From contig JAKSKX010000015.1 of NCBI GenBank assembly GCA_024401535.1, positions 1 to 64,000 of the forward strand: a stretch of DNA of 64,000 bases. Direction: 5' to 3'. The notes under the pieces were generated by a model. The model was not told the DNA's origin. It saw nothing but the letters and a program-made list of their open reading frames with translations, and searched no databases. The stretch comes from Paludibacteraceae bacterium (GTDB lineage Bacteria; Bacteroidota; Bacteroidia; Bacteroidales; Paludibacteraceae). Shown here in pieces: positions 59,199 to 63,502 of this stretch. The translations under genes and the position numbers were made by a program. Within the stretch, counting starts at the first letter, position 1; the number at the start of each line of letters is the position of its first letter.

Positions 59199-61235
59199 CT
59201 ATACATTGCGAAAGATTTCCACGAACTCATCAAATGTCTTATGCTCGCAAATACCGCCTTTCATTACCCAAACGTGCCACTCATTATTATGTTTTATCGG
59301 CAAATAAAAATAATGATCGACTTTTCTCGACACTTCTGTATAGAAATCTTTCAGTGTAGAAACTTTGTCTCTATATTCTTCACTATCTATACTCAAACTA
59401 TTAGACATATTCAAACTCTTTACCTCAAAGATGTGAATCCTATCATAAATATCTTTAAGGACAAAATCAGGATAAGAGAAGTGACGACCCGATGAATAAT
59501 ACTCATACTTAATCTCCGAATTTTCAAGAAAATTCTTACCAACAAGCAATATCTCATCTTTTCCTCCAACATTCACAACCTTTATATACTTCTTAACTTC
59601 TCTTGATAAAAGTTTATGAATCCATTCTTCCTCAGACTCCGAGTCAAACGAAAACTTATCATCAGATTTCTTACTCCAAACCCACTCGTCCAAATTTCGT
59701 TTGAAATCTGTTGGTGTATACGAAGATTCATAAGGAAAAGAGACCTCGTACACTTCACCATCACTATCTGTTGTTTTAGCTACATACTTTTGATAGTCGC
59801 AACAAGTATTGTTAATCTCTTTCTTAATCTTAGCAATGTTATTTGTGAATTTGAAAAATTTCTCTGGAGAATCAACGTAATCTTTAAAGTGCTTCCTTAC
59901 CTCTACTGTCGAGTTACTATATTCTCTATACAAATCGAATATACTTAAAGGAGACAATGTATCAACTGGAGCCAAAGACAAACTATCTATATCTACATCA
60001 TGAGTCGTATCAAAATCCATAAGTCTTGTTGTCTGAATTTTAACCTCGTTCTGTATCTCATTGTCTAATTCATCACCAAACAACATAGTAAGTTGCACGA
60101 ACTTAGGGTCTTCTTTTCTAACTCCCCATACATAAGCAGTTGAAATCAAATCTTGAGCTTCCTTACTCAAAGTTTCAAAGTCGAGCAACCTCGGATTTCT
60201 CCTAACCCTACCAACAACCTGCTCGTCCAACTGCTTGCTTTGAGAATCTCTCACTTGATAAAGCATACAAGCTCGGCGAATATCCCAACCTTCAGAAATT
60301 ACCATTTTGAAGATAATAATATCTATAGTACTATTGTCTAATTTAGCATAATACTTCCACCTGTTCATTGGTTGTTTCTTGATTCCGAGAATATCGTTGG
60401 TTTCACTCTTCTTCTCACTATCATCAAGAATAAGCATCCACTTCAAATCAGAGAAACCTAATTGGCTCAAAGTATTCTTTATCTTTTTGATCTCCTCATC
60501 AGCTTTATCTTTATTGGAAATTTGAATTATCATACAAGGATTTACTCCGATAGTATGATTCAAATAATCTTTTTTTATTTCAACAAACTTATTCAACGCA
60601 TCTTCCAAAGAATCAGATTGAGAACCATCTACCACCTTTTTTATAAGATGTGCATTTACTGCATCTATTGTAGAAATTTCAACATCTGGTATTTGCTTTT
60701 TCTTAATATCTGGAGTTGCCGAGAAGTTCACTACCTTCACGAAGAAATCATTTAATGAATCAAGATTTGAAGTATTTATATGACACTCGTCCTTTATCAC
60801 ATAAATGACTTTCCCGCTCATTCTTACAGCAATAAGGAAGTTCAACAAAGTTGCCTGCTTCATCAAAATAGACTCCTTCTTATACAAATCTCGAGGCAAG
60901 ATATAAACATTATTATCCTCTGGAATAGACAAAGCACCCTCTGTATCGTCCACACTTTTGATAAGATATGGATTTAGATTTCTAAACTTTCCTTTTGCGA
61001 TGTACCCACAAAAAGCTTCATAGTTCTGTTTTGCCAATTCTGCTTTAGACAGTGAAGAAACAATAAAGACAACATTGCTATTCACAGATAGAACTCTATC
61101 CATAAAGTCAGCCATCATGTGTGTCTTTCCCGAACCAGTAGGAGCTTTGAATGTTATTTCCTTTTGCGATGTACCTATTAGAGAGACAAGTTTATTCACC
61201 GCATCGTTTTGAAGTTGCTTTGCTTCATCTAACAT
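59199..61235 (-). CDS. Type III restriction enzyme Res-like subunit (helicase-nuclease), compact form
   Basis: A 678-residue SF2 translocase/endonuclease that would cut unmodified DNA with the Mod subunit. Motif I (Walker A) is APTGSGKT at 31-38, motif II is DECH at 149-152 (Type III/RecG-like), SAT-type FSATPD near 171 is motif III, and QVVGRVRRNP near 335 is motif VI. The C-terminal part carries a PD-(D/E)XK nuclease site: SYPDFVLKDIYD followed by HIFEVKSLN. EcoP15I-type Res subunits are about 950-1000 residues, so this one is short, but all expected motifs are present. It begins 2 nt after the mod stop and ends before a strong terminator. Confidence 0.9.
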   Translation of the reverse strand: MLDEAKQLQNDAVNKLVSLIGTSQKEITFKAPTGSGKTHMMADFMDRVLSVNSNVVFIVSSLSKAELAKQNYEAFCGYIAKGKFRNLNPYLIKSVDDTEGALSIPEDNNVYILPRDLYKKESILMKQATLLNFLIAVRMSGKVIYVIKDECHINTSNLDSLNDFFVKVVNFSATPDIKKKQIPDVEISTIDAVNAHLIKKVVDGSQSDSLEDALNKFVEIKKDYLNHTIGVNPCMIIQISNKDKADEEIKKIKNTLSQLGFSDLKWMLILDDSEKKSETNDILGIKKQPMNRWKYYAKLDNSTIDIIIFKMVISEGWDIRRACMLYQVRDSQSKQLDEQVVGRVRRNPRLLDFETLSKEAQDLISTAYVWGVRKEDPKFVQLTMLFGDELDNEIQNEVKIQTTRLMDFDTTHDVDIDSLSLAPVDTLSPLSIFDLYREYSNSTVEVRKHFKDYVDSPEKFFKFTNNIAKIKKEINNTCCDYQKYVAKTTDSDGEVYEVSFPYESSYTPTDFKRNLDEWVWSKKSDDKFSFDSESEEEWIHKLLSREVKKYIKVVNVGGKDEILLVGKNFLENSEIKYEYYSSGRHFSYPDFVLKDIYDRIHIFEVKSLNMSNSLSIDSEEYRDKVSTLKDFYTEVSRKVDHYFYLPIKHNNEWHVWVMKGGICEHKTFDEFVEIFRNV

Positions 61236-61237
61236 AC

Positions 61238-62893
61238 TCAGTCCTCCTTACTTTTCTTCAAAAACTTTGTGGTATTCTCAAAGTTCTCGCATATCCAAGC
61301 AACCTTATCTGCAAAGTTCTCAAACTTTGGCAAACCATAACATGTCTCGTCTATCTTGTCAAAAGCAGTCTCACCCTCTCTTGTTTCTGCTTGCGACACA
61401 TTCCCAATTTCATAAACATTGAGATTGTCCATGTATGGTGCGTTTTTCTGAAGCCAAGGAAAATCCTTTGTTCCATCATAGCACTCGCCACTCATTATGC
61501 GCTTCAACCTCTTTGTTGTAACATCGTATGCAATCCCATTAGGATTCTCTTTTGTCTTCTCGTTTACCTGACAAAGAATAAACTTTCTATTTCCTCCGTC
61601 TTGTCTATTCAACTCCATTACTGCATGACCTGTTGTACCAGAACCTGCAAAGAAATCGAGGATAACGGCAGAATCGTTATCCCTCATTACCATATCAATC
61701 AACTTCGAAATTAGTATTGATGGTTTAGGATTTTTAAACAAAGAACTTCCATTTATAAAAATAGTATCTAATTCCTTTTTTGCATTATCATTAGAATAAT
61801 GATTATCTATATATGACAATGAAGTAAATGCTTTAGTTGCTTCGATATTTTCAATTTCGCATTTACCATTCTTTTTTCTACAATACAAGTATGACTTTGT
61901 ATAAATTCGATTATTTTTTACTACAAAAAAGCCTTCTTTTTTCCCCCATTCTACAGCGTCCTTTGACCATCTCCAAACCCAATCCGTGACACCATGATTC
62001 CCATTTAGTCTTTCATAATGCATTTTCTCATCACTGCCAGGTACAAAAATTTGCCCATCTATTTCTATTTTATAATCCATTGACGAACTATATTGGAGAG
62101 AATTATAATCCAATGTTTGAGTAAGAGCATATCTTCCCCTTGTACTTACATACTCATCCTCATATTTGTATTTTTTCAAATCTGTTTTGTCCTCTTGACT
62201 AAATACAATTTCGGAACTCTTTATTTTTGTATATGCTAATATATAATCATTATTCTTAGCAATAGTATCAGTTGATTTTCCTCCTTTTTTTGTAATTCTA
62301 GGAACATTCATTAAAAAACCAACTTCTCCAAACACCTCATCAAACAAGCATTTTACATAGGCTTGATTCTTGTCATCTATACTACAAAATATAACACCAT
62401 CTTCACTTAACAAATGTTTTGCCAACTGCAAACGAGGATAGAGCATAGAAAGAAGATTATCACGAGTGATTGCATTGTTATAGTTTGTATTAGCAAACTC
62501 TCCCATACTATCTTTTCCATACGGTGGGTCAATGTATATCACATCAACTTTGCCCATATGAGTAATTAAAAGATTCTGTAGAGCATCATAATTATCACCG
62601 ATTATCAACTCATGCGTAGGACGAGACTCATCACTAACAAATGACAAATCCTCATTTTTCTTCTTGAACTTTATATTGTTAGAAATCTTTTCTAATCTCT
62701 TGTCAAAATGAAAACCTGTACGCTTATAGGTAGTTCCAAACGCAGCAATATTGTTCGCCTCTTCAATCGTATCTGCCTGACTTATCAATTTAATCAATAA
62801 ATCAGCATTAGCCTGCTCCAAAATTCTATCGACTACACGCTGATTGATAGTGGCAATTAAATCCTTTTTAATTTCCGCTAACCCACTAGACAT
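61238..62893 (-). CDS. Type III-like adenine-specific DNA methyltransferase (Mod)
   Basis: A 551-residue beta-class N6-adenine methyltransferase that would protect host DNA and give the restriction system its specificity. Motif IV is VIYIDPPYGKDSM (DPPY at 122-125), followed by the target-recognition region, then motif I FFAGSGTTGHAVMELN near residue 425, in the order expected for this class. The ATG at 62893 (MSSGLAEIKKDL) is preferred: the open frame further upstream uses a TTG inside the structured leader. It is followed at once by the Res gene. I see no simple-sequence tract that would make it phase-variable. Confidence 0.92.
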   Translation of the reverse strand: MSSGLAEIKKDLIATINQRVVDRILEQANADLLIKLISQADTIEEANNIAAFGTTYKRTGFHFDKRLEKISNNIKFKKKNEDLSFVSDESRPTHELIIGDNYDALQNLLITHMGKVDVIYIDPPYGKDSMGEFANTNYNNAITRDNLLSMLYPRLQLAKHLLSEDGVIFCSIDDKNQAYVKCLFDEVFGEVGFLMNVPRITKKGGKSTDTIAKNNDYILAYTKIKSSEIVFSQEDKTDLKKYKYEDEYVSTRGRYALTQTLDYNSLQYSSSMDYKIEIDGQIFVPGSDEKMHYERLNGNHGVTDWVWRWSKDAVEWGKKEGFFVVKNNRIYTKSYLYCRKKNGKCEIENIEATKAFTSLSYIDNHYSNDNAKKELDTIFINGSSLFKNPKPSILISKLIDMVMRDNDSAVILDFFAGSGTTGHAVMELNRQDGGNRKFILCQVNEKTKENPNGIAYDVTTKRLKRIMSGECYDGTKDFPWLQKNAPYMDNLNVYEIGNVSQAETREGETAFDKIDETCYGLPKFENFADKVAWICENFENTTKFLKKSKED

Positions 62894-62897
62894 ATAT

Positions 62898-63076
62898 GTT
62901 ATTTTATGCGCGTTCGCCACCACATAAAACAACACCGCCAAGCACAAGAAACGTGGACATCTCTAATCCACATTCCAAGGTGCTTGGCCTGACCTTCACA
63001 AACAGAAAAGAGAAGCCCACGAAATCGTGAGCATCCACCTTATCCCGTTTGTGAAAATTCCCTTCTGCGGCCAAGC
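62898..63076 (-). ncRNA. Candidate structured leader RNA of the type III R-M operon
   Basis: Read on the minus strand, from a predicted start near 63127 toward mod at 62893. GCTTGGCC (63076-63069) can pair with GGCCAAGC (62989-62982). TTCACAAAC (63055-63047) pairs with GTTTGTGAA (63003-62995) and encloses a GCTCACGA/TCGTGGGC hairpin. The segment GCCAAGCAC (62988-62980) can instead pair with GTGCTTGGC (62945-62937), enclosing a GTGGA/TCCAC hairpin. A last hairpin TTTTATG/CATAAAA (62928-62903) ends 5 nt before the ATG region. The first and third pairings use the same bases, so they exclude each other. No protein frame explains this sequence. I do not recognise a known RNA family. Confidence 0.6.
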
Positions 63077-63133
63077 TTTAGGAATGTTTACGAATAATAG
63101 CAAACGCTGATTAAAAAAATATTTTACTGATGG

Positions 63134-63141
63134 CAAAAGTA
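63134..63141 (-). promoter_or_regulatory. Predicted -7 promoter box of the R-M operon or leader RNA
   Basis: TACTTTTG on the minus strand, matching TAnnTTTG. It would start a transcript near 63127, about 235 nt before the mod ATG. Confidence 0.5.
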
Positions 63142-63464
63142 AACATAAGAATTTTAAAATAAAAATTTTCTCGACATTTTCAATACAATCTATCTATTTA
63201 TTCTTATGAAACAAAGCAATCTCCATTCAATCCAAAAGAAATTCTAATTTGCAATCTACAATTTGAATACCGTAAAAACAAGAAACAAATAGATATATAG
63301 AATTTTAATGAAGCAAATATTTTAATTTGATAAGTAAATAAGTTTTTTCTCGGACACTGTAAACAACATGAAAATTATGATTGTTATCTTTATGCCAAGA
63401 CAACATGAAAAGGAATTAACATTTTTCAAAAGCTTCTCTAGAATTCTTTGATTACAAAAACACG
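63142..63464. other. AT-rich intergenic region, no gene seen
   Basis: About 320 bases upstream of the R-M promoter. An open frame at 63322-63510 on the minus strand has no recognisable features and runs into the downstream terminator. Confidence 0.5.
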
Positions 63465-63502
63465 AAAAGGCCGCCAGAATGTTGTATTCTGACGACCTTT
63501 TA
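63465..63502 (-). terminator. Terminator of the TPR protein gene
   Basis: AAAGG-CG-CAGAAT pairs with ATTCTG-CG-CCTTT, 15 positions with two mismatches, loop GTTGT, followed on the minus side by TTTTCGTG. T residues follow on the plus side too. Confidence 0.7.

Follow-up and report, generated by a model that had tools for sequence, protein, structure and literature searches.

How is the type III restriction-modification gene pair of a Paludibacteraceae bacterium controlled, and does the strongly structured leader in front of it act as an RNA? The window analysed is a stretch of 64,000 nucleotides (GenBank assembly GCA_024401535.1, contig JAKSKX010000015.1, positions 1 to 64,000), in which an adjacent mod methyltransferase and ResIII-type subunit make up a type III system. 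The leader is on the minus strand at 62897-63141 and extends for about 240 nt from below a -7 box (63141-63134) to the mod start codon (ATG 62893). Control of a restriction enzyme by a leader with competing stems would, to our knowledge, be unusual. The folding energy of the leader was -95.5 kcal/mol compared to -61.7 +/- 4.3 kcal/mol in 200 dinucleotide shuffles (z -7.8), and none of the 200 was as good. The plus strand of the element also folds well (z -5.5), as is expected from the near-palindromes it contains, and the minus strand is preferred as the RNA strand because of the promoter box, the gene order and the position of the U-run. On the same strand further upstream, a palindrome followed by a T tract (63464-63500) lies right after the stop codon of a TPR gene and looks like the terminator of that gene.

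A preliminary description, based on the letters of the window, had proposed that a central segment pairs with either of two others in mutually exclusive stems. All of the segments it named were located in the plus-strand sequence, namely GCCAAGCAC (62937-62945), GTGCTTGGC (62980-62988), GCTTGGCC (62982-62989), GGCCAAGC (63069-63076), TTCACAAAC (62995-63003) and GTTTGTGAA (63047-63055). In the minus-strand RNA, GGCCAAGCAC has two alternative partners, GCTTGGCC on its upstream side (8 bp) and GTGCTTGGC on its downstream side (9 bp). The features of the window copy are collected in Table 1. Along the RNA the main segments follow in the order E, S1, A5, A3, S2 and B, where E, A5, A3 and B are strands 1 to 4, S1 lies within the loop of the 1:2 pairing and S2 within the loop of the 3:4 pairing.

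Table 1. Genes and leader segments of the window copy, with positions in the window. Paired z values compare native with swapped duplexes and are given as first set / order-wide set.
Feature	Position	Strand	Evidence
mod, type III DNA methyltransferase	61238..62893	-	551 aa from ATG 62893; Pfam N6_N4_Mtase 3e-29; PADLOC MTase_III 3.5e-71
res, type III restriction subunit	59199..61235	-	678 aa; Pfam ResIII 1e-13; PADLOC REase_III 6.7e-24
Bacteroidota-type -7 box TACTTTTG of the predicted leader promoter	63134..63141	-	sequence; TAnnTTTG enrichment across copies
Strand 1 (E) CAGCGTTTGCTATTATTCG, partner A5	63091..63109	-	E:A5 z -9.8 / -5.5
S1 ACATTCCTAAAGCTTGGCC, inside the 1:2 loop, partner S2	63069..63087	-	S1:S2 z -19.7 / -17.7
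oA5, outer 5' arm of hairpin A (additional 9-bp stem of the preliminary description)	63047..63057	-	oA5:oA3 z -20.6 / -17.5
Strand 2 (A5) GGGATAAGGTGGATGCTCACG, partner E or A3	63026..63046	-	duplex z; column scan
Strand 3 (A3) CGTGGGCTTCTCTTTTCTG, partner A5 (putative antiterminator) or B (putative terminator)	63003..63021	-	A5:A3 z -11.1 / -9.2; A3:B z -12.4 / -8.5
oA3, outer 3' arm of hairpin A	62995..63003	-	oA5:oA3 z; sequence
S2 GGCCAAGCACCTTGGAATGT, strand common to the two exclusive stems of the preliminary description	62970..62989	-	S1:S2 z; S2:S3 z -14.2 / -7.5
Strand 4 (B) GTGGATTAGAGATGTCCACG, 3' arm of putative terminator; own hairpin B5:B3 in the window lineage	62952..62971	-	A3:B z; B5:B3 z -8.5 / -2.9
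U-rich tract 3' of strand 4, interrupted in the window copy (TTTCTTGT)	62944..62951	-	6 of 8 T in the window copy
S3 TTTCTTGTGCTTGGC, partner S2	62937..62951	-	S2:S3 z
Hairpin C, directly before the mod start codon; loop GTGGCGAACGCGC complementary to GCGTTTGC of E (one G-U)	62897..62934	-	fold

The element belongs to a large RNA family for which there is no curated match in Rfam 15. When 199 related genomes were searched at the DNA level, 23 had a match (E<=0.001), including the window's own genome, and several of the matches were full length. With a covariance model built from 11 sequences (R1), 282 of the 358 genomes searched from the same family had a match (E<=0.01; these E-values are rough), and the window's own genome gave ten matches at E<=0.1, five of them at 8.3e-5 or better. 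With a second model, built from 75 sequences (R2), matches were found in 106 of 295 genomes of the order (E<=0.001) and in 37 of 395 genomes of the phylum (E<=1e-4). The exact 20-base E motif was present in at least 120 stretches of named genome contigs, and the 80 matches listed all had titles from Bacteroidota (Bacteroidales, Paludibacteraceae, Prevotellaceae, Porphyromonas and others); when R2 was run on these 80 loci, it gave 78 matches in 77 loci, two of them cut off. Most of the named records are metagenome-assembled genomes, and a Porphyromonas strain (oral taxon 278) also has a copy. The plasmid and phage collections contained no DNA match to the element of the window, and two exact matches to an 18-base E motif were found in viral contigs. 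In four genomes (G135, G188, G529 and G503) copies lie no more than a few hundred bases from the end of a contig, which suggests that the element or its neighbours are repeated there.

The Rfam scan that the preliminary description had proposed found no family at the gathering score at the element, either in the window or in 20 relatives. When E-values up to 10 were admitted over 951 bases of the window, only two overlaps at chance level were seen, with SNORA75 (E 6, scoring 18 bits where the cut-off is 80) and mir-2843 (E 4), and among ten relatives E-values up to 1 gave none at the element. A survey from 2017 is said to have reported 224 candidate RNAs, and its supplementary list may hold an earlier description of the element. 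Among the papers listed in literature searches, no title or opening of an abstract mentioned such an element, and an earlier description is possible in the supplementary lists of PMC8040213, PMC7366714 and PMC2864571.

Covariation was assessed from duplex energies, in that native pairs of segments, both from one copy, were compared with pairs made by exchanging segments among copies, using 2000 permutations. The first set held 41 of 75 copies (under 80% identity) and the second 27 of 28 order-wide copies; the permutations ignore relatedness, and the safeguards are the silent control pairs and the repeat in the second set. In the first set, none of the 2000 permutations was as good as the native pairing for E:A5, A5:A3, A3:B or S1:S2, and the outer stem of hairpin A, S2:S3, B5:B3 and a pairing of E with the tail (z -4.4) were likewise beyond all 2000 (Table 1). 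E:B was weak (z -2.2, 34 of 2000 permutations), and the control pairs E:A3 (-1.2), E:S2 (+1.3), S1:B (-0.5), S1:S3 (-0.3) and A5:B (+0.5) were without signal. In the order-wide set E:A5, A5:A3, A3:B, S1:S2, the outer stem and S2:S3 again gave signals (Table 1), B5:B3 was weaker (2 of 2000 permutations as good), and the control pairs E:A3 (-1.2), S1:B (-0.6), S1:S3 (+1.7) and A5:B (-0.1) again gave none. When all column pairs were scanned without a given structure, these stems occupied the top seven to nine ranks, and in alignment A6 an E:B5 stem followed in tenth place.

In the main part of S1:S2, eight of eight pairs were changed on both sides and 99.1% of cells were paired; G-U pairs were common in the pair counts. 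For state I (E:A5, A3:B and S1:S2) 93.5% (A4) and 91.6% (A8) of cells were paired, and for state II (A5:A3, S1:S2 and, in A4, further helices) 88.8% (A4) and 94.5% (A8), compared to 32.5-46.3% in slid control structures, though these counts lean towards the structures tested because the alignments were guided by R1 and R2. R1 has largely the structure of state I and was used to align the 75 copies that gave the first covariation set (A2); R2, built from A2 with the structure of state II, was used to align A4 and A8. The first-set signals of S1:S2, the outer stem and S2:S3 are free of this bias, since all three are absent from R1. As the homologues retain the pairings through compensatory change, the pairings are not due to chance. 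This held for both of the stems originally proposed and for the additional 9-bp stem, which is the outer stem of hairpin A. Judged by covariation, S1:S2 is a core helix with a strong signal and S2:S3 is real and weaker.

The exclusive stems S1:S2 and S2:S3 of the preliminary description are one part of a larger switch, and what appears to be its main part had escaped the list. Full pairing of A5 with E excludes its full pairing with A3, A3 is likewise unable to pair fully with both A5 and B, and from the sequences the main switch looks like one in which the four strands pair either as 1:2 together with 3:4 (E:A5 and A3:B) or as 2:3 (A5:A3). At least five T were found in the eight nucleotides after B in 65 of 74 (A4), 72 of 75 (A6) and 28 of 28 order-wide (A8) copies, with fewer than five in 9 of 74 and 3 of 75, and over the first five positions after the last base of B the T fraction was 0.72-1.00 in the three sets. 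Because this run follows strand 4 directly, A3:B together with the U-run resembles an intrinsic terminator in layout, and A5:A3 an antiterminator. The reverse assignment, with B5:B3 as terminator and A3:B as antiterminator, was dropped, as the U-run directly follows A3:B in copies without a clear B5:B3. In the nearest relatives, hairpin B5:B3, which is next to the U-run, might act as a terminator in state II as well.

Nested energies, in which pseudoknots are ignored, were lower for state II than for state I in 69 of the 75 copies, with a mean difference of 9.7 kcal/mol (with state I barred from upstream pairing of A3 and A3:B not forced). When the helices were enforced, the mean gap was 12.0 (sd 10.4) towards state II, and 29 in the window copy; the mean S1:S2 duplex energy from this calculation, large and positive, is an artefact and was set aside. 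This suggests that state I needs kinetics (the order of co-transcriptional folding), a pseudoknot or a bound factor. With its interrupted U tract and very strong hairpin A, the window copy may be tilted towards read-through. S3 is placed after most of the U tract and so would be present only in read-through transcripts. A lock between the 5' and 3' ends, formed by E with the loop of hairpin C, was also considered as an attractive possibility; E:tail has the signal given above, but within the 71 copies sorted to restriction-modification genes (see below) the native and swapped values were the same (-11.0 and -11.0).

On the 5' side, the -7 box TACTTTTG is present on the minus strand where the preliminary description had placed it. 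In 85 of 131 copies, TAnnTTTG, which we take to be the -7 consensus of Bacteroidota, was found no more than 150 nt 5' of the element, compared to a mean of 9.7 in mononucleotide shuffles and 21 on the reverse strand, and a TTG accompanied it at 18-22 nt in 48 of the 131 against three on the reverse strand. Many copies also have a conserved A+T-rich stretch about 20 nt 5' of E, often resembling AACATATTATTAATCATAGCG, and ACATAT was found within 60 nt in 88 of 157 copies. On the 3' side, an ATG open reading frame (ORF) of at least 100 aa began on the same strand within -40 to +250 nt of the model end in 48 of 67, 45 of 59 and 12 of 21 copies in three sets, where the mirror control gave 8, 10 and 2. 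The median distance of the gene start past the model end was 53, 52 and 66 nt, respectively.

The ORFs downstream were examined in several samples. The sample of best hits yielded 70 ORFs from 74 loci (four had no usable ORF), with Pfam matches to N6_Mtase (14), Eco57I (13), MmeI_Mtase (12), N6_N4_Mtase (12), ResIII (9) and DarT (1), families that overlap. The E-motif sample yielded 69 ORFs from 78 matches (two were cut off and seven had no ORF), with matches to N6_Mtase (19), Eco57I (16), MmeI_Mtase (12), N6_N4_Mtase (12), EcoRI_methylase (8) and C5 methylase (5). Counted by member, 41 of the 69 have a methyltransferase-type motif (37 amino-type and four C5-like, not individually checked) and six of the other 28 match MmeI_Mtase, so that approximately 47 of 69 look like restriction-modification proteins. 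PADLOC models MTase_I, II and III matched in both samples, and IIG was among the matches listed for the best-hit sample. Neither sample is free of bias, since the first is weighted towards relatives of the window copy and the second towards a single spelling of E, and the choice of the longest ORF favours big genes. Upstream neighbours were found for 66 of the 78 E-motif matches (12 were without one), and among the 65 scanned after removal of a duplicate no DNA methylase was present in the 25 most frequent of 116 families, with an ORF filter unlike the one used downstream.

More distant copies precede other genes. In the order-wide sample (26 ORFs from 28 copies) there were three N6_Mtase matches, one EcoRI_methylase, two leucine-rich repeat proteins and many N-termini that look secreted. 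The phylum-wide sample comprised 27 ORFs from 29 loci; ten were scanned, and four of these contained TonB-receptor plug domains (226-408 nt downstream). Another of the ten, a reverse transcriptase (L287, 106-1062, minus strand), starts 439 nt downstream of a distant copy and matches PADLOC models for reverse transcriptases of retrons and other defence systems (best 5.2e-96), which suggests that the leader may also serve defence systems other than restriction-modification. A regular-expression sort of 118 copies gave 71 with restriction-modification genes, 27 secreted-like and 20 other, though the sort is crude and misplaced at least one (L238, C5-methylase-like by its N-terminus, was filed as secreted). 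In and near the window's family the copies precede restriction-modification genes, and elsewhere surface or other genes. Many copies bear out the association with defence genes that the preliminary description had named as a test, but in many copies outside the family of the window the gene that follows encodes a secreted or outer-membrane protein. In the tail between the U-run and the start codon, an ACGC-like motif was seen in 56 of the 71 restriction-modification copies and 5 of the 27 secreted-type copies of the same crude sort, and the former may share an extra 3' module. At one locus (L166) a copy of the element is followed, some 30 nt further on, by a DUF805 RNA (RF03081; 1400-1468, minus strand), and a single gene is preceded there by a tandem of regulatory RNAs.

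The original suggestion of a cis-acting leader with mutually exclusive stems ahead of mod is supported by covarying homologues near restriction-modification genes. We consider it probable, at roughly 0.7, that the element is a cis-acting transcription attenuator belonging to an RNA family not matched in Rfam 15. The best reading of the sequences would be a new class of attenuator or riboswitch-like RNA, and it draws directly on the pairings and their covariation, the position of the U-run, the enrichment of the promoter box and the narrow spacing between element and start codon. Transcription would start at the -7 box just upstream, and strands 1 to 4 would be made in order. In state I, 1:2 and 3:4 would form, S1 and S2 would meet in a loop-loop (pseudoknot) contact, and the 3:4 helix with the U-run would end transcription before the gene. 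In state II, 2:3 would form hairpin A with S1:S2 stacked below it, strand 4 would be left without a partner and the polymerase would read into the gene. The balance between the two may be set by a ligand or protein that stabilises the fold of S1:S2 and 1:2.

The leader might instead be a translational switch in which alternative folds expose or hide the start codon via S2:S3 and hairpin C, the U-run being incidental. The covariation of S2:S3, the narrow distance to the start codon, the position of hairpin C against the mod ATG in the window and the copies without a clean U-run (e.g. L034) are all consistent with this. However, the position of the U-run relative to strand 4 is very regular, holding in every order-wide copy, and in the 71 restriction-modification copies the tail folds barely better than shuffles (mean z -0.71, with 11 below -2) and E:tail lacks a native-over-swapped signal. 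We regard a translational switch as unlikely.

An independent trans-acting small RNA with its own promoter and terminator, upstream of genes by chance, was the alternative raised in the preliminary description. A promoter box and a terminator-like end are present, many genomes have several copies, and the tested range lacks an ATG ORF of 100 aa in 19 of 67, 14 of 59 and 9 of 21 copies. This alternative has lost ground and appears quite improbable, as genes on the same strand start at a median of 52-66 nt past the model end, 4.5- to 6-fold over the mirror control, the same layout is found ahead of unrelated genes, and in one instance the copy is followed by a known cis-regulatory RNA, the DUF805 RNA.

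A leader-peptide attenuator of the trp type, in which the choice between 1:2 and 2:3 depends on a ribosome at strand 1, would fit the 1-2-3-4 layout typical of such attenuators. ATG ORFs of at least five codons running into E were found in 14 of 157 copies compared to 50.8 in shuffled leaders, in a test that covered ATG starts, and this depletion makes a leader peptide very unlikely. An element acting at the level of DNA, such as a recombination site or the end of a mobile element with palindromes that fold as single strands, would account for the strong inverted repeats, the folding of both strands, the copies near contig ends in fragmented genomes and two ORFs named by eye from their features (one resolvase-like, 942 nt downstream at L128, and one resembling a REP-associated transposase at L029), but it is hardly credible given that the U-run, promoter box and gene distance are strand-specific, that G-U pairs are common and that no transposase was found among the Pfam families of the downstream ORFs (the first 25 in both large samples and all 23 in the order-wide sample).

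Returning to the attenuator, a wider role is possible, if doubtful. The family may be a phylum-wide RNA switch that senses a general signal (e.g. a nucleotide or a sign of phage attack) via the loop-loop fold of S1:S2, so that one terminator would set the expression of many defence systems, together with surface receptors of possible use to phages, as an RNA-read regulon. If the attenuator reading is correct, restriction-modification and other defence genes in many Bacteroidota would share one RNA-based control point. As the family is large and strongly covarying, the signal can be searched for directly.

Among known systems, trp-type attenuators have 1-2-3-4 leaders with a terminator and an antiterminator. 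The element resembles them in its four ordered strands, exclusive pairings, U-run after 3:4 and gene start shortly downstream, but it shows no sign of a leader peptide (ATG ORFs are avoided), has an extra S1:S2 helix joining both loops and precedes many unrelated gene families. Some riboswitches also act by transcription termination, and like these the element has a conserved structured 5' leader, the layout of an expression platform and several copies per genome before different genes. Unlike riboswitches, it has no common metabolic pathway in the genes seen downstream and no Rfam match at curated scores, and it may be considered a candidate class of riboswitch, in which the double-loop pseudoknot would be unusual. 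The DUF805 RNA is likewise cis-regulatory, but is a separate 68-nt model that matches outside the element. The regulators of restriction-modification usually described are proteins, and the common route is control by C-proteins, which are DNA-binding regulators. If our reading is right, the element would similarly control the expression of restriction-modification genes, but as an RNA rather than a DNA-binding protein; copies are present ahead of type I, II, IIG and III methyltransferase genes.
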